DNA from: an uncultured Mediterraneibacter sp. | GTDB lineage: Bacteria > Bacillota > Clostridia > Lachnospirales > Lachnospiraceae | Length of the DNA: 43,194 bases | Assembly (NCBI GenBank): GCA_944377745.1 | Contig: CALWFV010000028.1 | Coordinates: forward strand, 1 to 43,194 | Direction of reading: 5' to 3' | In this document: piece after piece, positions 21,393-29,448 of the stretch | Layout: every line of letters starts with the position of its first letter | Numbering within the stretch: the stretch's first letter is position 1 | The notes under the pieces: generated by a model | What the model was told of the DNA's origin: nothing | Database searches by the model: none | The model's input: only the letters and a program-made list of their open reading frames with translations | Translations under genes and position numbers: made by a program

Positions 21393-21703
21393 CAGGATTG
21401 AATAAGCCAATGCGAAGAACAGGACAGGACTTCTGAAGTCTGAATGTTTTCAGAGAGTTTCCGGTTGGTGTGAGGAAACAGCATGACGAGGGAGCCATCC
21501 CCTGCGAGCAGTCGGGGTGAACCGTATTTTTACAAGTAGCCCGGACCGGAATTCCACCGTTATAAGGAGAACTGTTAATCCGTCGGAGTGTCGGCGGACG
21601 ACGGTACAGAGAGACCGGATGGCATCCGGTAAACAGAAGTGGTAACGCGGAGAAGATAATCTTCGTCTTCTGACAGAGAGATCTGTCGGAGGACTTTTTT
21701 TAT
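21393..21703 (+). promoter_or_regulatory. T-box leader upstream of cstA
   Basis: A tRNA-sensing leader. Stem I has the AGAGAG bulge and apical hairpin GTTTCC-N11-GGAAAC (21457-21479, loop with GGTTGGTGTGA). The T-box sequence AGAAGTGGTAACGCGG (21635-21650) carries the TGGT bulge that pairs with the uncharged tRNA end and fits an A73 tRNA. The terminator is GTCTTCTGACAGA-GAGA-TCTGTCGGAGGAC with a T run (21665-21700). The most likely specifier is GCC (21494-21496), meaning alanine, because it is followed by A and the stem closing bases; this codon reading is tentative. Uncharged tRNA would allow read-through into the transporter gene. The interval 21155-21836 holds no protein gene. Confidence 0.85.
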
Positions 21704-21836: not shown

Positions 21837-23525
21837 ATGAACACACTGGTAATCGTATTGATCGCCGCTGTCTGCCTGATTGCGGCGTATACTCTGTACG
21901 GGCGCTGGCTGGCGAAAAAATGGGGGATCGACCCGAAGGCAAAGACGCCGGCAGTCGTACATAATGACGGGCAGGATTATGTACCTACAGACGGGTGGAC
22001 TGTATTTGCCCATCAGTTTTCATCGATCGCAGGAGCAGGCCCTGTCACCGGAGCAATCCAGGCGGCGGCATTCGGATGGCTCCCGGTCCTTCTCTGGATC
22101 ATCCTCGGAGGTATCTTCTTCGGAGCTGTCACAGACTTCGGAGCGCTGTATGCGAGCGTGAAGAACGACGGAAAATCCATGGGACTTCTGATCGAGAAAT
22201 ATATCGGAAAAACAGGACGTAAGCTGTTCCTCGGCTTCTGCTGGCTGTTCTGTCTGATCGTTATCGCAGCGTTCGCAGATATGGTAGCAGATACATTTAA
22301 CGCTTATGTTGTGACGGACGGAGTACAGACTCTTTCCGAGAATGCGACAGTAAACGGGGCGGCGGGAAGTATCTCCCTGTTCTTCATCCTGTTTGCAGTT
22401 GTATTTGGAGTATCACAGCACAAATTGAAACTGACCGGCTGGAAAGAAATCGTATTCGGTCTGGTATGCACAGTGCTTGCATTTGTATTCGGTATGAATT
22501 TCCCGGTGATCCTCGGGAAAGAGATGTGGGTATACATCGCGTTTATCTATATCTTCCTCGCTGCAGTGCTTCCGATGTGGTTCGTAATGCAGCCGAGAGA
22601 TTTTATGTCAACCTTTATGTTCGTCGGCATGATCGCCGGAGCTGTTCTCGGACTGCTCTTTGCTCATCCGACCATGAACCTTCCGGCATTTACAGGATTC
22701 GAGAATGACAGCCTCGGAACACTGTTCCCGATCCTGTTCGTAACGGTTGCCTGCGGAGCGGTATCCGGTTTCCACAGTCTGGTGTCCTCCGGAACTTCTT
22801 CCAAGACGATCTCAAACGAGAAGGATATGCTGAAAGTAGGATACGGCGCAATGGTTCTGGAAAGCCTTCTGGCGGTTATCGCCCTCTGTGTTGCCGGTGC
22901 GGCCGCAGGCGCGGACGGAACCGCTGCAGTGGGAACACCGTTCCAGATCTTCTCATCCGGCGTCGCAGGATTCCTTGAGATGTTCGGCATCCCGGTATAT
23001 GTTGCGCAGAGCTTCATGACAATGTGTGTTTCCGCTCTTGCATTCACAACACTGGATTCTGTTGCCAGGATCGGACGTATGTCCTTCCAGGAGCTGTTCA
23101 GCGTGGATGATATGGAACATGCGGAAGGATGGAGAAAAGTTCTCTGCAATAAATATTTTTCAACGATCATCACACTGGTATTCGGCTATATCCTGACACA
23201 GGTAGGATACTCCAATATCTGGCCTCTGTTCGGAAGCGCGAACCAGCTCCTGAGCGCCCTTGTGCTGATCACGCTCTGTGTATTCCTGAAAGTGACGGGA
23301 AGAGAGCTGAGAACACTGGTGCCGCCGTTTGTGATCATGCTGATCGTGACATTCACAGCGCTGGTACAGAGATTTATCTCTCTTGTCAACGCGTTCGCAG
23401 CAGGAACAGGCGTCTTCATGGTAGAGGGACTTCAGCTCATCGTAGCTGTCCTGCTGATGATCCTTGGAGTGACGATCGTGGTTACTTCAGGAAAAGAACT
23501 GATCACAAAGAAAGCAGAAAAATAA
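21837..23525 (+). CDS. cstA: CstA-family carbon starvation transporter
   Basis: 562 residues with about 14-16 hydrophobic segments. CstA-type features are present: DGQDYVPTDGWTVFAHQFSS, IAGAGPVTGAIQAA, FGWLPVLLWIILGGIFFGAV, TDFGALYASVKNDGKSMG, and the later GAVSGFHSLVSSGTSSKTI. CstA and BtsT relatives import peptides or pyruvate in the cytoplasmic membrane. This copy is shorter than Escherichia coli CstA (about 700 residues), like other Firmicute forms. It is controlled by the T-box leader, so it is probably made when one amino acid runs short, which fits amino-acid or peptide uptake better than pyruvate. AAGGAG lies eleven bases before ATG 21837, a long but usable spacing. A single-gene transcript. 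Confidence 0.92.
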   Translation: MNTLVIVLIAAVCLIAAYTLYGRWLAKKWGIDPKAKTPAVVHNDGQDYVPTDGWTVFAHQFSSIAGAGPVTGAIQAAAFGWLPVLLWIILGGIFFGAVTDFGALYASVKNDGKSMGLLIEKYIGKTGRKLFLGFCWLFCLIVIAAFADMVADTFNAYVVTDGVQTLSENATVNGAAGSISLFFILFAVVFGVSQHKLKLTGWKEIVFGLVCTVLAFVFGMNFPVILGKEMWVYIAFIYIFLAAVLPMWFVMQPRDFMSTFMFVGMIAGAVLGLLFAHPTMNLPAFTGFENDSLGTLFPILFVTVACGAVSGFHSLVSSGTSSKTISNEKDMLKVGYGAMVLESLLAVIALCVAGAAAGADGTAAVGTPFQIFSSGVAGFLEMFGIPVYVAQSFMTMCVSALAFTTLDSVARIGRMSFQELFSVDDMEHAEGWRKVLCNKYFSTIITLVFGYILTQVGYSNIWPLFGSANQLLSALVLITLCVFLKVTGRELRTLVPPFVIMLIVTFTALVQRFISLVNAFAAGTGVFMVEGLQLIVAVLLMILGVTIVVTSGKELITKKAEK

Positions 23526-23635: not shown

Positions 23636-24781
23636 TTAATAATCGAGCGCCTCTGTGTAGATCTCGCGTACTTCGTCCTCAGTAAATACTTTCGGATGAT
23701 TCTGGATGCTGGCGAGAGATACCTTGAAGGTGTTGCCGGTCATCCAGTCCACGTCTTCGGCTTTTACGCCTTCCGCGGAAAGGTTTGTCCTCAGATCGAT
23801 CTTTTCAAGGAACCGGGTCAGCGTATTCACGAAATCCGTTTCATCTGTCCCGCCGAGAAGCTGTGAGATCCTGGCGAATTTTTCCGGCGCCGAGGAGATT
23901 GAGCGGCGGTAGACGACCGGCGCCAGTGCGGCGAGACCTCTTCCGTGGGTGATGTTGAGCAGGCCGCTTGCCGGATGCTCCAGTCCGTGAGGAGCTGTCA
24001 CGCCTACCTGGTTGATGGACATGCCTCCCAGTGTGCTGGCAAATGTGATCCCGCACCAGGCGTCAGCCTCGTCAAGGCCGTTGTATACTGGGATAAGATT
24101 TTCACCGATCAGCCTGATCCCTTCCAGGGCGAAGATCTCTGTGACGGGGGAGCAGGTTCTGCTCAGATATGCTTCCATACAGTGGCAGAGGGCGTCAAAC
24201 CCTACGGACGCCAGCACTTTTTTCGGCATGGTCTTCATCAGTTCCGGATCGATGATGGACGCCTTTGCGATCACGGAATTATCCCGGAGGGATTTTTTGT
24301 CTTTCGTCTCATCGTCTGTGAGGACGGCAAAACAGTTTCCCTCGCTTCCGGTCCCGCATGTGGTGGGAACAAGGATAAGGGGAAGAGCGCCTGTTCCGGT
24401 TTTCTTTCCGTATATATAATCGAAGATCGGTCCTTCATTGCAGGCGGCAAAGGCGATGGCTTTGCTGCAGTCCATGATGCTGCCTCCGCCCAGCCCGACG
24501 ATGACCTGAATGCCTGCTTCCTTTGCAATACCGGCGCCCCGCATGACAGTGGAGGCCAGGGGATTGGGCTTCGCTTCGTCGAATACAGTCACCTCAGCCC
24601 CTGCTTTTTCAAGCAGGGACTTTGCGCGGCCAAGGAGACCGGAACGCTTGGTGCTGTGCCGTCCTGTGACGATCATGACCTTTTTTCCGTAGCGGGCAGC
24701 CTCCTCTCCGAGAACTTCTGTTTTTCCGGGACCGAAGATCAGGTTGACCGGAAGATAGTATTGAAATGAATGTGTCTGCAT
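23636..24781 (-). CDS. Iron-containing alcohol dehydrogenase
   Basis: 381 residues, group III (iron-dependent) alcohol dehydrogenase. Seen: NLIFGPGKTEVLGEEAARYG and VMIVTGRHSTKRSG in the nucleotide domain, the family signature IVGLGGGSIMDCSKAIAFAA, LPLILVPTTCGTGSEGN, and the metal-site region GFDALCHCMEAYLS, HGLEHPAS and ITHGRGLA with the Asp and His ligands. Such enzymes interconvert aldehydes and alcohols with NAD(P)H, and here probably reduce the aldehyde made by the adjacent aminotransferase. The start could be either of two adjacent ATG codons (24784 or 24781); GGAGG lies seven bases before the second. It is the last gene of the operon, 27 bases after the aminotransferase stop. Substrate unknown. 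Confidence 0.9.
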   Translation of the reverse strand: MQTHSFQYYLPVNLIFGPGKTEVLGEEAARYGKKVMIVTGRHSTKRSGLLGRAKSLLEKAGAEVTVFDEAKPNPLASTVMRGAGIAKEAGIQVIVGLGGGSIMDCSKAIAFAACNEGPIFDYIYGKKTGTGALPLILVPTTCGTGSEGNCFAVLTDDETKDKKSLRDNSVIAKASIIDPELMKTMPKKVLASVGFDALCHCMEAYLSRTCSPVTEIFALEGIRLIGENLIPVYNGLDEADAWCGITFASTLGGMSINQVGVTAPHGLEHPASGLLNITHGRGLAALAPVVYRRSISSAPEKFARISQLLGGTDETDFVNTLTRFLEKIDLRTNLSAEGVKAEDVDWMTGNTFKVSLASIQNHPKVFTEDEVREIYTEALDY

Positions 24782-24808
24782 CATTTTTCCTCCATTCTGT
24801 TTCCGGAT

Positions 24809-26026
24809 CTATGCTGTGAGTTCTTCTACGGCTTCCCGGATGATTTCAGCAGCTTTGTCGCAGTGCTCCTCTGTCAGGATCAGCGGCGGCACCATACGGA
24901 TCACACTGCTTCCGATGGCAGTGATGAGCAGCTTCTTCTCGAAGCATTTGTGTTTAACATCCACGGCGTTGACGGTTCCGTCAAATTCTACGCCGACCAG
25001 AAGACCCTGTCCTCTGACTTCTTTGATATGAGGAAGCGTTTTCAGCTTATCCATGAAATAGGCGCCCATCTTCTTTGCATTTCCGGCAAGATCACGGTCC
25101 AGAAGTTCTCCGATCTCTGCGAGAGATGCGGCGCAGGATACCGGGTTGCCTCCGAATGTGGTTCCGTGAGAGCCGGGAGTGAAGGCTTTTGCAACTTCTG
25201 CTGTCGCACAGATCGCGCCGATGGGTATTCCGCCTCCCATGGCCTTTGCCATGGATACGATATCCGGCTTGATTCCGTAGTTCATGTAGGACATGACGGC
25301 GCCGGTCCTGCACCATCCTGTCTGAACCTCATCGAGAAGGAGGAGCATTCCTTTTTCATCGCACAGTTTACGCAGCCCGGACAGGAATTCCTGAGTTGCC
25401 GGATGGACACCGCCTTCGCCCTGTACCGGCTCCACCATGATCGCGATGGTATCGTCTGTCACGGCATTTTTAAATGCTTCCAGGTCGTTGAACTCTGCAT
25501 AGGTAAATCCGGGAACCATGGGCTTGAAGCCGATCTGGCATCCGTTGTCCGGCTGGCCTGTCGCGCTCATGGAACCATAGGAACGGCCGTGGAAGGACTC
25601 TTTTGCAGTGACGATATTGTAGTGGGTCGGACCATATTTTTCCACGCCGTATTTTCTGGCCATTTTGATCATCGCCTCGTTTGCCTCAGTACCGGAGTTC
25701 TGGAAAAAGATCTTATCCATTCCGATGGCGTTGCATATTTTCTCAGCAAGCAGCGCCTGGGGGATCGTATACGGATAGTTGAAGGTGTGCATGATGTCGT
25801 CCACCTGATCCTTTACTGCGGCCACAACTTTCTTGTTGCAGTTTCCGGCGCTGTTTACCGCGATACCTGCGTAGAAATCCAGGTAGGCTTCCCCGTTCTC
25901 GTCGTAGATGTACATATCTTCCGCGCGTTCCGCGAGCATGGGGAAACGCTCATATGTATCGATCATATATTTCTCTACAAGTCCTTTGATGTCTTCCTTT
26001 GTATATCCTGTCTCAGTCAGTTTCAT
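24809..26026 (-). CDS. Class III PLP-dependent aminotransferase
   Basis: 405 residues. The PLP lysine is Lys261 (IVSMAKAMGGG) and the pyridine-binding Asp is Asp232 (LLLLDEVQTGW). FFQNSGTEANEAMIKMAR, AKESFHGRSYGSMSATGQ and VEPVQGEGGVHPA are typical of ArgD, GabT and related enzymes, which transaminate terminal amino groups (acetylornithine, 4-aminobutyrate, beta-alanine, taurine and others). The substrate cannot be fixed from sequence, but its place between an amino-acid importer and an alcohol dehydrogenase, without arginine genes, favours catabolism of an omega-amino compound. A longer frame from 26041 has its first codons inside the ribosome site (GGAGGAG); ATG 26026 lies six bases after it. 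Confidence 0.92.
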   Translation of the reverse strand: MKLTETGYTKEDIKGLVEKYMIDTYERFPMLAERAEDMYIYDENGEAYLDFYAGIAVNSAGNCNKKVVAAVKDQVDDIMHTFNYPYTIPQALLAEKICNAIGMDKIFFQNSGTEANEAMIKMARKYGVEKYGPTHYNIVTAKESFHGRSYGSMSATGQPDNGCQIGFKPMVPGFTYAEFNDLEAFKNAVTDDTIAIMVEPVQGEGGVHPATQEFLSGLRKLCDEKGMLLLLDEVQTGWCRTGAVMSYMNYGIKPDIVSMAKAMGGGIPIGAICATAEVAKAFTPGSHGTTFGGNPVSCAASLAEIGELLDRDLAGNAKKMGAYFMDKLKTLPHIKEVRGQGLLVGVEFDGTVNAVDVKHKCFEKKLLITAIGSSVIRMVPPLILTEEHCDKAAEIIREAVEELTA

Positions 26027-26047
26027 GTTCTTCTCCTCCATTCGTTT

Positions 26048-26677
26048 CTACAGCAGTCCTTTGATCTGCAGATAATCTTTTATTACTTTTACGCAGTTGT
26101 CGATCCCGACCCGTTCGCTGTTGAGCGTCATGTCGTAGTTTACCGGGTTGGTCCAGTAGTTTCCATGCGTATAGTATGCGTAGTAGTCCGCACGGTATTT
26201 GTCCGTGTGAGCGATCGTCGCGTTGGCGACCTCCTCGGTAACGCCCATGTTGGCGATGGTCCGCTCCACGCAGAATGCCCGGGGAGCCTCCACGTAGACG
26301 CTGACCACGTTGGGGCGCCCTCTCAAGACCCAGTCGGCACATTTTCCGACGATCACACAGGATTCGGTATCAGCCAGATTTTCAATGATCTGTTTCTCGT
26401 ACTCAAACAGCGTGTCGTCTGAGACAAACTTTTCATTTCTGGCAATGTAATGCTTTGCACGGGGCAGCCCTTTCAGAAAACTGGAGAACCCTCCGTGGGT
26501 CCGGATCTTTTCGTTTACTTCCTCAAACAGCTGTTCATCCAGCCCGCTCAGCTGGCTGGCAAGGGTGAGGATCCGGTTTTCATAACAGTGGATCCCCAAC
26601 TCCTTTGCCAGTTTCGACGCGATCTCTTTCCCGCCGGTGCCGAACCCTCTTGCGAATGTCACGACATAATTTTTCAT
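26048..26677 (-). CDS. Cytidylate kinase-like P-loop protein
   Basis: 209 residues of the cytidylate-kinase-like family found in many Firmicutes, distinct from housekeeping Cmk. The P-loop region is FARGFGTGGKEIASKLAKEL (about residues 8-27), a relaxed Walker A. Further segments are CVIVGKCADWVLRGRPNVVS, YVEAPRAFCVERTI, and a C-terminal DMTLNSERVGIDNCVKVIKD that matches the end of Cmk proteins. It is a probable nucleotide-binding kinase or regulator of unknown substrate. GAGGAGG is seven bases before ATG 26677. It lies between the ABC transporter ATPase and the aminotransferase in the same operon, an unusual companion that suggests a role linked to the transported compound. Confidence 0.85.
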   Translation of the reverse strand: MKNYVVTFARGFGTGGKEIASKLAKELGIHCYENRILTLASQLSGLDEQLFEEVNEKIRTHGGFSSFLKGLPRAKHYIARNEKFVSDDTLFEYEKQIIENLADTESCVIVGKCADWVLRGRPNVVSVYVEAPRAFCVERTIANMGVTEEVANATIAHTDKYRADYYAYYTHGNYWTNPVNYDMTLNSERVGIDNCVKVIKDYLQIKGLL

Positions 26678-26706
26678 CTGTCATCCTCCTCACGTGCAGA
26701 CAATGG

Positions 26707-27447
26707 TCATCCGGCCAGGTATCTGCTCAGAAATTCTCTTGTCCTCGGATTCTTCGGAGCGGTGAACAGGACGTCCGGGGACGCGTCCTCCGCTACATAG
26801 CCTTTATCCATGAAGATCGTTCTCGTTGACACGTCTCTGGCGAAAGCCATCTCATGTGTCACGATGATCATGGTAAGACCGGTCTCAGCCAGCTCCTTCA
26901 TGACTTCCAGTACCTCCCCGACCATTTCAGGGTCCAGGGCGCTGGTGGGCTCGTCGAAGAGAAGAACCTCGGGGTTCATGCAGAGCGCACGTGCGATGGC
27001 GACTCTCTGCTTCTGACCTCCTGAGAGCTGCGCCGGTCTGGCGTTGATGTAGGGCGCCATCCCTACTTTTTTCAGATGGGTGATGGCACGGTCAAAGGCA
27101 TCTTTTTTTGAGAGATGAAGAACCTTCCGTGTGCAGCACATGCAGTTTTCCAGTACGGTCATATTGTTGAACAGGTTGAAGGACTGGAAGACCATGCCCA
27201 CTTTTGCGCGGTACTTGTTGATCTCTCTCTGGACGTCTCTGATCTCTTTTCCGTGATAGAGGATCCGTCCGCTTGTCTGATGCTCCAGCCGGTTGATGCA
27301 CCGGAGCAGGGTGGATTTCCCTGAACCGGATGAACCGACGATGCAGATCACTTCTCCTTTATCTACGGATATATCTATTTTCCTGAGCACCTCGTGGTCT
27401 CCAAAGGATTTGCTCAGGTTTTCAATGCTGATGATATTCTCTGCCAT
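26707..27447 (-). CDS. Polar amino-acid ABC transporter ATP-binding protein (GlnQ type)
   Basis: 246 residues. Walker [10 protein letters not shown] (about 38-46), Q-loop in [10 protein letters not shown], signature [15 protein letters not shown], Walker [11 protein letters not shown], and H-loop IVTHEMAF. This is the GlnQ/HisP-type ATPase of polar amino-acid importers. The frame opens at ATG 27480, but the N-terminal extension lacks a ribosome site; ATG 27447 ([11 protein letters not shown]) is the family start, with AAAGGAG about eleven bases before. It powers the permease encoded 42 bases upstream. The complex imports an amino acid or a similar amine. Confidence 0.94.
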
Positions 27448-27489
27448 AGTTGCCGTTTCTCCTTTCTGATCACAGTACATACCTGATCT

Positions 27490-28251
27490 CTACTGAGCCT
27501 CCATGTACTCCACTGCAAGAACATAGTCCTTCTTTCCTTCCATCTTCTTCTCGATCAGGCTGAAAAGCCTGCTGAATACAAAGCAGAGCACAAAGTAGAT
27601 CACTGCGATGACGAGATATGCTTCGTAGTATTTATAGTAATTGGCTCCTGCTGTCTTGGCAGCCATGAAAAGTTCCTGTACTGCGATAACGTTCAGCACG
27701 GAGGTCATTTTCAGGTTTGTGAGGAACGTGTTTGCCATTTCAGGGAGTATGTTTCGGAATGCCTGCGGAAGCACGATAAAAAGCATTGTCTTCAGAGGAG
27801 ACATTCCCATTGCCAGAGCGCCTTCCCTCTGGCCTGTATCGATGGAATTGATTCCGGCCCGGACCGTCTCAGCCATGTAGGCTCCTGTGTTGAGGACCGT
27901 TACCAGGATGCCGGCGGCGACGGAAGAAAGTTCCACGCCCGACTGGCGGAGTCCGTAGTAGACGATCATTGCCTGCACGATCATGGGAGTTCCCCTGAAG
28001 ATCTCCACATAGATCCGGCATATTGCCTTGATAAGTTTAAAGACAGCGCTCTTTATGATATTATCTTCTTTTCTGATCCTGATATCCTGGATCAGCCCGA
28101 CCACATATCCGAGTATAAACCCGAGAATGGTCCCGCTGATGGCTATGTACAGTGTCAGGATCGTTCCCTGGATGAACATGTTCGAGTATTTTTCGGCGAG
28201 AAAGATCACCCATTCCAATGAATTTGTCGGCTCAGTAATGTTAAACAGCAT
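27490..28251 (-). CDS. Polar amino-acid ABC transporter permease
   Basis: 253 residues with about five membrane helices. The His/Glu/Gln/Arg permease features are clear: IQGTILTLYIAISGTILGFI at the start, YVEIFRGTPMIVQAMIVYYG, and the EAA loop region EGALAMGMSPLKTMLFIVLP QAFRNILPE. The single permease would form a homodimer with two ATPase copies. GGGAGG is eight bases before ATG 28251, and the gene lies 39 bases after the binding-protein stop. Specificity is set mainly by the binding protein. Confidence 0.93.
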   Translation of the reverse strand: MLFNITEPTNSLEWVIFLAEKYSNMFIQGTILTLYIAISGTILGFILGYVVGLIQDIRIRKEDNIIKSAVFKLIKAICRIYVEIFRGTPMIVQAMIVYYGLRQSGVELSSVAAGILVTVLNTGAYMAETVRAGINSIDTGQREGALAMGMSPLKTMLFIVLPQAFRNILPEMANTFLTNLKMTSVLNVIAVQELFMAAKTAGANYYKYYEAYLVIAVIYFVLCFVFSRLFSLIEKKMEGKKDYVLAVEYMEAQ

Positions 28252-28290: not shown

Positions 28291-29181
28291 TTATTCTGAC
28301 GCCGGCTGCAGTTTGATCACCTGATCCATCAGTTCGTCCATGGCGGCTTTGTCGTTCCATCCGATGGCATCCATGGCATCCTGGATTTTGTCTCTCAGGG
28401 CTGTGTCGTCTTTTCTCGTGGCGATACATACATTTACCATCTCATCGTCTCCTGTAAAGGTATCGGAGGGATCCAGAGTGATCACCTTCAGATCATCGTT
28501 TGTCAGTGCTGCTGACTCTGCTGTCGGAAGATCAACTACGCACACATCCGCGACGCCGTTGGAGATAGCCATAAAGCATTCGGAGGTTGTCTCGTAGTTT
28601 CCGGCCTGTACACCGCCTTCGATCTGATCCAGAAGCGGAACCCATCCGGTTCCCAGCTGTGTCGTGAGCTTACATCCGGTTCCGGCAAGATCGGAAAGTT
28701 TTGTCACATTCTCATAAGCCCCGCCCTTCTTTACAACGATGCAGTTATCTCTATAGTAATATGGCTCGGTAAAGGAGTAGGAGATCTCACGTTCAGCTGT
28801 CCTTCCCATACCGGCTATGATCGCGTCATAATCTCCTGCGTCCAGGGAAGTTCCGATGGAACTCCAGTCAACTTTGTGGACTTCCAGTTCCATGCCCATT
28901 TCGTCGGCAAGTTTCTGTGCTACAGCCACATCGTAACCGTAGGCGTAAAAATCGGATCCGTAGATCGGCACCGCCTTAGAGCCGTCTGCCAGATCTTCTG
29001 TCTCCTGTGTCCAGTTGAACGGAACATAGTTGCATTCCATTCCGACGCGGAGAACTTTATCGCTGTCTGCGGATGACGCAGAAGCTGTATCAGTGCTGTC
29101 TGATCCGCATCCCGCCGCCATCGCCATTGTCATTAAGGCCGTCATACATACTGCCGCTGCCCGTCTATATCTTTTTTTCAT
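28291..29181 (-). CDS. Amino-acid ABC transporter substrate-binding lipoprotein
   Basis: 296 residues. A lipoprotein signal peptide (MKKRYRRAAAVCMTALMTMA then MAAGC, lipobox AAG-Cys25) anchors the protein outside the membrane. The SBP_bac_3 domain follows: LRVGMECNYVPFNWTQ, GYDVAVAQKLADEMGMELEV, DYDAIIAGMGRTAEREISYS FTEPYY, and later GVADVCVVDLPTAES. This cluster binds polar amino acids; the exact ligand is not predictable. GAAGGAGG is eight bases before ATG 29181. It is the first gene of the six-gene operon and sits behind a structured leader of about 230 bases. Confidence 0.93.
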   Translation of the reverse strand: MKKRYRRAAAVCMTALMTMAMAAGCGSDSTDTASASSADSDKVLRVGMECNYVPFNWTQETEDLADGSKAVPIYGSDFYAYGYDVAVAQKLADEMGMELEVHKVDWSSIGTSLDAGDYDAIIAGMGRTAEREISYSFTEPYYYRDNCIVVKKGGAYENVTKLSDLAGTGCKLTTQLGTGWVPLLDQIEGGVQAGNYETTSECFMAISNGVADVCVVDLPTAESAALTNDDLKVITLDPSDTFTGDDEMVNVCIATRKDDTALRDKIQDAMDAIGWNDKAAMDELMDQVIKLQPASE

Positions 29182-29202: not shown

Positions 29203-29412
29203 ATGGAAAAGGCGCTCATCCCGTCTGAGTGGAATGAACGCCTTTGTCCATCTATGTTTAAATATCTTGTTTTATGATCAAACTTAATCGAATCCTGCCT
29301 TCTGCACGTCTGCAGTCCGGCGGAAGAGCAGAGGATATAACAGAAACGGCGTCCATTCCTTTCGAAATGAACGCCGTTGTTCCATGCTGTCATATGCCTG
29401 TTCGATTAAGTT
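29203..29412 (-). promoter_or_regulatory. Structured leader RNA of the amino-acid operon (candidate riboswitch)
   Basis: On the minus strand the transcript begins with AACTTAATCGAA (29412-29401), which pairs perfectly with TTCGATTAAGTT (29292-29281) to close a domain. Inside are an 8-bp stem (29394-29387 with 29343-29336), a 12-bp hairpin H1 (29377-29346, ACGGCGTTCATT with AATGGACGCCGT), and a hairpin CTGCA-GACG-TGCAG (29315-29302) extended by 29334-29328 with 29298-29294. A second hairpin H2 (29250-29203) repeats GGCGTTCATT and ends about ten bases before the ribosome site. This layout looks like an aptamer plus expression platform. It does not match a class I recognise. The rest of 29182-29668 holds two promoters and an operator-like palindrome. 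Confidence 0.6.
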
Positions 29413-29418
29413 GACTCG

Positions 29419-29448
29419 ATTATATATAAAATCACGTGGGATTGTCAA
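29419..29448 (-). promoter_or_regulatory. Promoter of the amino-acid operon
   Basis: On the minus strand TTGACA (29448-29443), an 18-base spacer and TATAAT (29424-29419). The predicted transcript start, about 29412, falls at the first base of the leader's closing stem. Confidence 0.88.

Follow-up and report, generated by a model that had tools for sequence, protein, structure and literature searches.

A leader with two promoter-proximal hexaloop elements before an amino-acid uptake and transamination operon of an uncultured Mediterraneibacter sp.: a predicted tandem ANTAR-type attenuator of a nitrogen regulon

The stretch of DNA analysed here (the window) comprises 43,194 nucleotides of contig CALWFV010000028.1 (assembly GCA_944377745.1) from an uncultured Mediterraneibacter sp. 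in the family Lachnospiraceae of the order Lachnospirales. Its minus strand carries a set of genes for amino-acid uptake and transamination, which are presumed from gene order and common strand to be co-transcribed. The gene products, the promoter and the structured leader between promoter and first gene are listed in Table 1. On the plus strand, a T-box leader (RF00230, 98.6 bits, 21406-21673) is found upstream of an ORF for a CstA-like transporter (21837-23525).

Table 1. Features of the leader and of the presumed operon, in coordinates of the window
Feature	Position	Strand	Support
Promoter: TTGACA 29448-29443, spacer 18 nt, TATAAT 29424-29419	29419..29448	(-)	12/12 consensus bases
Closing stem, left arm, 12 bp	29401..29412	(-)	fold, 7-leader alignment, letters rechecked
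H1 mini-hairpin GAAC-[AACGGC]-GTTC, A1/G4 hexaloop 29378-29373	29369..29382	(-)	letters, stem scan
H1 long hairpin, 15 bp, GAAA loop, terminator-like	29345..29378	(-)	fold, terminator scan
Second arm of closed domain, contains CTGCAGACG	29293..29324	(-)	fold, clade-specific
Closing stem, right arm	29281..29292	(-)	97.6% of cells paired in 7 leaders
H2 mini-hairpin GATGGAC-[AAAGGC]-GTTCATT, A1/G4 hexaloop 29245-29240	29233..29252	(-)	letters, stem scan
H2 long hairpin, 15 bp, 8-nt loop	29208..29245	(-)	fold, 7-leader alignment
First gene: family 3 solute-binding protein, amino-acid ABC transporter	28291..29181	(-)	PF00497, E 6e-24
Rest of presumed operon: permease, ATPase, cytidylate-kinase-like protein, class III aminotransferase (argD subfamily), Fe-alcohol dehydrogenase	23636..28251	(-)	

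The leader (29412-29203, minus strand) folds with a minimum free energy of -88.7 kcal/mol, compared with -47.3 ± 4.0 kcal/mol for 200 shuffled sequences (z -10.4), and none of the 200 shuffles folded as well. From the position of the promoter, a transcript start near 29412 is reasonable. A sequence-only reading of this DNA had described a clear minus-strand promoter followed by a perfect 12-bp closing stem, and both are borne out, the stem in the predicted fold and in a check of the letters. The second arm of the closed domain and the downstream hairpin H2, also described in that reading, were reproduced in the predicted fold. The inner helix that leads to hairpin H1 is present too; it is predicted as 9 + 3 pairs and not as the 8 pairs given earlier. 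Pairing and changes on both sides were then counted per helix across seven leaders of the same clade. In total, 95.9% of all helix cells are paired. In the closing stem one pair is changed on both sides and two pairs are broken in L007. The inner helix is paired at 91.9% and 100%, the H1 long hairpin at 100% with three pairs changed on both sides, and H2 at 97.8%, while the second arm, at 85.7% and 88.6%, has the weakest support. By these pair counts over homologous leaders the helices covary, a check that the sequence-only reading had proposed.

The whole leader occurs as a single copy in the window's genome. Across the genus a long match was found in 6 of 58 genomes, and a seventh genome has a short match only, in the start-codon region. 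The extra closed domain was seen only in L003-L007 and L013-L018, all from one clade. L029 and L037 have parts of it: L029 keeps the second-arm motif CTGCAGACG, and L037 keeps some of this motif. Scanning the leader with the Rfam 15 covariance models at gathering and relaxed thresholds gave no relevant match (the relaxed scan returned four unrelated weak matches, E 0.7-3.5), in agreement with the earlier statement that it is unlike the lysine, glycine, glutamine, SAM and T-box classes.

H1 and H2 represent two copies of a single element. Each has a mini-hairpin with a hexaloop that carries A at position 1 and G at position 4 (A1/G4), and a long hairpin. The hexaloop of such elements mostly reads AANGNN and is bordered by C and G. 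As RNA, the mini-hairpins read GAAC[AACGGC]GUUC in H1 and AUGGAC[AAAGGC]GUUCAU in H2, and the leader of the genome's own glnA has GAAAC[AAGGGC]GUUUC. The mini-hairpin stem has four pairs in H1 and seven, including a G-U pair, in H2. The long hairpin's 5' arm includes the loop and 3' arm of the mini-hairpin, so that the two folds exclude each other. The leader structure is real and contains mutually exclusive folds. A terminator scan called H1 terminator-like and did not call H2, which is followed on its 3' side by a weak U-tract (TCCATT). The ten-base repeat GGCGTTCATT reported in the earlier reading is present at 29375-29366 in H1 and at 29242-29233 in H2. That reading also had the right arm of H1 pair with H2 as an alternative. 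Such pairing is possible, since both hairpins are copies of one element, but no sign was found that the arms evolved to pair mutually.

Its prediction of a ligand-controlled translational switch stands in part: the leader is structured with mutually exclusive folds, but a ligand-binding riboswitch that controls translation is unsupported. H2 is unpaired with the ribosome site in the predicted folds. The leader fold stops just short of this site, and a fold of 29256-29195 leaves it free over the part that this fold covers. The conserved unit is, instead of a ligand-binding domain, a hairpin of about 30-55 nt near the promoter and mostly at nitrogen genes, as described below.

Relatives of the solute-binding protein were found at 70 loci, and at 42 of these we took 49 hairpins by eye. 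The choice was made by the hairpin base (AAAGGCGY...RCGCCTTT, with variants), and loop variation was allowed. Three near duplicates (L014, L024 and L051) were left out. Another 25 loci were unused, including 18 of a distant group (L064-L081), several without such a hairpin and three with less than 125 nt upstream; a similar hairpin at L059 was left out of the 49. One hairpin is found at 35 of the 42 loci and two are found at L013, L015-L018, L029 and L037. All 49 of these eye-picked hairpins have G at loop position 4 and a C-G closing pair, and 48 have A at position 1, while loop positions 3, 5 and 6 are variable. The stem under the hexaloop has at least 3 pairs in 44 hairpins and 2 bp in five.

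At many loci, elements of the H1/H2 type occur without the closed domain, which bears on the interpretation of the leader as a metabolite riboswitch with the closing stem and second arm as aptamer and H1/H2 as expression platform, acting on translation or transcription. The strong fold (z -10.4), the nearly complete pairing of the closing stem (97.6%) and the retention of the second-arm motif in L029 and partly in L037 speak for an aptamer. However, the closed domain is restricted to one clade, the elements exist elsewhere without it, its second arm has the lowest pairing of all helices, and no relevant Rfam match was found. We consider this explanation unlikely.

An exact hairpin pattern identified 57 places in 48 of the 120 family genomes, compared with 17 in the backwards control (hand tally). 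Apart from the closing C, the 5' flank played no part in the selection of these sites. The flanks 5' and 3' of the hexaloop nevertheless pair, with a mean stem of 4.46 bp versus 3.23 bp in shuffled flanks (0 of 10,000 as high), and the stem has at least 3 pairs at 54 of the 57 sites. The second pair is AU at 33 sites, GC at 18, GU at 4 and unpaired at the other 2. The covariation score of the mini-hairpin is 0.431, against 0.219 after shuffling and at most 0.196 after sliding. The long hairpin covaries as well, with substitutions compensated between its arms, and the spacing between these arms differs widely among sites. U-tracts after the long hairpins vary, and several, H2 among them, are weak. 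Over the 57 sites no pairing signal was detected between the 5' flank and the terminator tail (z 0.8, compared with z 8.2 for the mini-hairpin), and an extended terminator stem was dropped as the cause of the conserved flank. The idea that the conserved hairpin base is itself the recognised helix was dropped too, since the flank pairs across the hexaloop. A strong promoter ends 8-22 nt before the hexaloop at 29 of the 57 sites, versus 5 of 2850 shuffles. A looser promoter threshold (6.5) was uninformative, as 982 of 1140 shuffles passed, and the stricter one was used.

For 55 of the 57 places a downstream ORF was picked by a ribosome-site rule and scanned (two places had no ORF in the stretch). 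Counted over the best 25 of 34 families, with some proteins matching several, the downstream genes encode glutamine synthetase (14), ammonium transporter (8), class II amidotransferase (GATase_2, 4), P-II (3), circularly permuted ATP-grasp protein (3), ABC ATPase (3), AsnB (2), CTP synthase (2) and solute-binding protein (2). Some of the 57 places are unrelated; for example, L098 and L228 look intragenic. In the family genomes the element is mostly single and promoter-proximal. As the same element lies near the transcript starts of genes for glutamine synthetases, ammonium transporters, P-II and asparagine synthase, the operon in the window would be one member of a nitrogen regulon.

A covariance model, R1, was constructed from 24 seeds that include the flank, among them H1, H2 and the hairpin of the genome's own glnA. 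The four best R1 matches in the window's genome are H1 and the glnA, H2 and GSIII leaders, with E 5e-6 at glnA (a seed) and E 7e-5 at GSIII (not a seed). The leader of an aminotransferase gene gives a weaker match (E 0.03), and some of the weaker matches resemble ordinary 3' terminators. A weak version of the element is seen at a gene for an Lrp/AsnC-type regulator in the same genome (L158; R1 E 5.8, stem 3). R1 matches 86 of 120 family genomes at E <= 0.001 and 54 of 196 genomes in the order at E <= 0.0005. Of 28 model-found sites in other genomes, a set biased by the flank in the R1 seeds, 24 have stems of at least 4 pairs in a scan that requires A1/G4; the exceptions are L254 and L257, which pair badly, L216, whose loop starts with G, and L210, which is mislocated. 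Searching the genus with a related pattern gave hits in 42 of 58 genomes and 1 match in the backwards control; the first pattern tried in the window's genome gave 1 match versus 2 in the backwards control. The sequence-only reading had also raised the case of palindromes scattered at unrelated loci as a mobile repeat. Such palindromes do occur elsewhere, but their distribution is mostly regulon-like. A mobile palindromic repeat is unsupported in the window's genome, where the whole leader occurs once and the four best model matches are those given above.

A single ANTAR match (E 5e-17) is found in the window's genome, in a protein encoded just behind glnA, and the leader of this glnA carries the element. 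The region between the two genes contains, by eye, a long inverted repeat (L114:8830-8910). Among solved structures the protein is nearest to 6wsh/6ww6 (E 2e-8). The latter is EutV with RNA, for which contact residues including Arg168, Met172, Asn173, Arg175 and Arg177 are named in PMC8934654. In our alignment, judged by eye and with EutV numbering shifted by two, only Met172 of these five residues is conserved. In none of the 19 ANTAR proteins aligned with one another (of 30 loci, selected by a regular-expression match) does the receiver domain have Asp where the alignment to EutV places the phosphorylated one; in these proteins the ANTAR domain follows a basic linker.

ANTAR was found in 105 of the 120 family genomes, and element and protein co-occur, with p values that are optimistic because the genomes are related and the assemblies incomplete: R1 matches 84 of 105 genomes with ANTAR versus 2 of 15 without (p = 7e-7), and the exact pattern 48 of 105 versus 0 of 15 (p = 4e-4). 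Among near-complete genomes the counts are 72 of 90 versus 2 of 11 for R1 (p = 8e-5) and 43 of 90 versus 0 of 11 for the exact pattern, and outside the family R1 matches 32 of 110 genomes with ANTAR versus 4 of 64 without (p = 2e-4, hand tally). There are 21 ANTAR-bearing family genomes (of 105) without an R1 match. In the two ANTAR-less genomes with a match, that of G129 resembles a 3' terminator and that of G171 is a GSIII leader with the loop GACGGC. The G171 leader (L246), with G at position 1 of the hexaloop, is possibly a decaying site. The hexaloops of L044 and L216 likewise begin with G.

This co-occurrence also weighs against a plain 5' hairpin whose role would be to stabilise the mRNA or to hold read-through at a constant level, with no trans-acting factor. 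The position of many hairpins right behind a promoter and the weak U-tracts of several, including H2, fit such a role. It would leave unexplained, however, the covarying mini-hairpin with its invariant G4 and near-invariant A1, as well as the nitrogen-gene bias and the association with ANTAR, and we regard it as hardly likely.

In known ANTAR systems, A1 and G4 of the hexaloop are reported to be important for recognition (PMC3369931, PMC8934654). The ANTAR targets studied in detail need two hexaloops, which in eut are joined by a linker of 5-12 nt; a single stem-loop was bound more weakly, and lengthening the linker to 14 nt sharply lowered induction (PMC3369931). EutV bound isolated hexaloops, and one hexaloop was argued from the structure to be the minimal binding unit, while antitermination was said to require contact with each hexaloop (PMC8934654). 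As far as the dual-hexaloop RNAs of EutV, NasR and AmiR are described in the passages cited, the elements found here have in common with them the A1/G4 hexaloop and C-G closing pair, the location of the 3' part of the hairpin inside a terminator-like stem (termination being predicted here), the nitrogen genes and an ANTAR protein encoded in the genome. Closure by A-U and C-G, as in the eutP hairpin, is seen in many of the present elements. The elements differ from those RNAs in having one hexaloop each and in a mini-hairpin that often starts at about the first transcribed bases; a further difference lies in the protein, with its receiver position lacking Asp in the 19 aligned sequences.

It is improbable that the leader is a canonical dual-hexaloop target in which the H1 and H2 mini-hairpins act as P1 and P2, joined by the closing stem. 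Both mini-hairpins do have A1/G4 loops, but they are 116 nt apart, whereas a 14-nt linker already reduces eut induction sharply (PMC3369931). Moreover, 1 of the 57 sites has another hexaloop hairpin in the 45 nt upstream, fewer than in shuffles (137 of 2850), and a promoter ending as close to the hexaloop as at 29 of the sites leaves little room for one. With one hexaloop per element and no second nearby, the element is filed as a single-hexaloop variant outside the dual-hexaloop class that would work like an ANTAR attenuator, binding being predicted. A DNA operator, with the palindrome just past the promoter bound as DNA by a repressor, is highly improbable: the location right after the -10 element at many sites would suit it, but the arm spacing varies widely, arm substitutions are compensated as in RNA helices, and a half-site consensus would need no covarying flank.

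It is more likely that the leader elements are worked by an ANTAR-family RNA-binding protein than that they form a new metabolite riboswitch. We conclude that the leader is probably a tandem ANTAR-type transcription attenuator of a nitrogen regulon, with ANTAR binding and termination as predictions. By default, the long GC-rich hairpin would form in H1 and H2 and, as an intrinsic terminator or pause, would lower read-through into the amino-acid uptake and transamination operon. The glnA-linked ANTAR protein would become active, presumably in nitrogen limitation, and would bind and stabilise the mini-hairpin RC-[AANGNN]-GY, which overlaps the base of the long hairpin. With the long hairpin's 5' arm taken up in this way, no terminator would form and transcription would continue; both the direction of control and the signal are inferred.

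Dual-hairpin hits before P-II, ammonium-transporter and glutamine/glutamate-synthase genes of diverse bacteria have been reported (PMC3369931), and ANTAR control of nitrogen genes as such is therefore not new. Antitermination of nitR/glnA in Clostridium acetobutylicum is mentioned in PMC4676874, where, as proposed here, an antiterminator protein is tied to glutamine synthetase control; the passage in question describes no RNA element of the present kind. The same paper mentions an ANTAR protein near the glutamate-synthase genes of C. thermocellum. A full-text literature search, covering material outside subscription papers and supplements, turned up no account of the element, nor of any nitrogen regulon under ANTAR control in Lachnospiraceae. 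A short RNA motif together with a named candidate protein would make the nitrogen regulon predictable from sequence and testable. If the proposal is true, these are natural single-hexaloop sites, in contrast to the EutV system, in which antitermination is said to need both hexaloops (PMC8934654). Genes of this kind could be overlooked by searches that rely on the dual hairpin.

As a broader and tentative proposal, in which our confidence is slightly less than even, the general nitrogen switch of Lachnospiraceae and their kin may be an ANTAR antiterminator with a single hexaloop, made up of roughly the first bases of the transcript. It would be read by the glnA-linked ANTAR protein, whose degenerate receiver would sense nitrogen without phosphorylation. 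The operon in the window would represent a double version of this switch, and the additional folded domain around it may provide a second input.

Several minor observations were made during the comparison of leaders. At distant homologues of the solute-binding protein from Clostridium, Bacillus and relatives, a lysine riboswitch (RF00168) is located just upstream (L065, L068, L070, L072, L076 and L079), that is, in 6 of 10 sources scanned, the six having been picked for their resemblance. This hints that the substrate is lysine or a relative. The leader in the window was considered as a lysine riboswitch and rejected, since RF00168 is absent here, the fold is unrelated and the riboswitch occurs only at the distant homologues. 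By eye, the element also seems to be duplicated in tandem in the leaders of L103 and L109. In many relatives the gene preceding that for the solute-binding protein ends like what we take to be a PucR/CdaR-type regulator. Many upstream regions of relatives (L019-L063) also contain, by eye, TGTGCAAAATG-like motifs repeated before the promoter.
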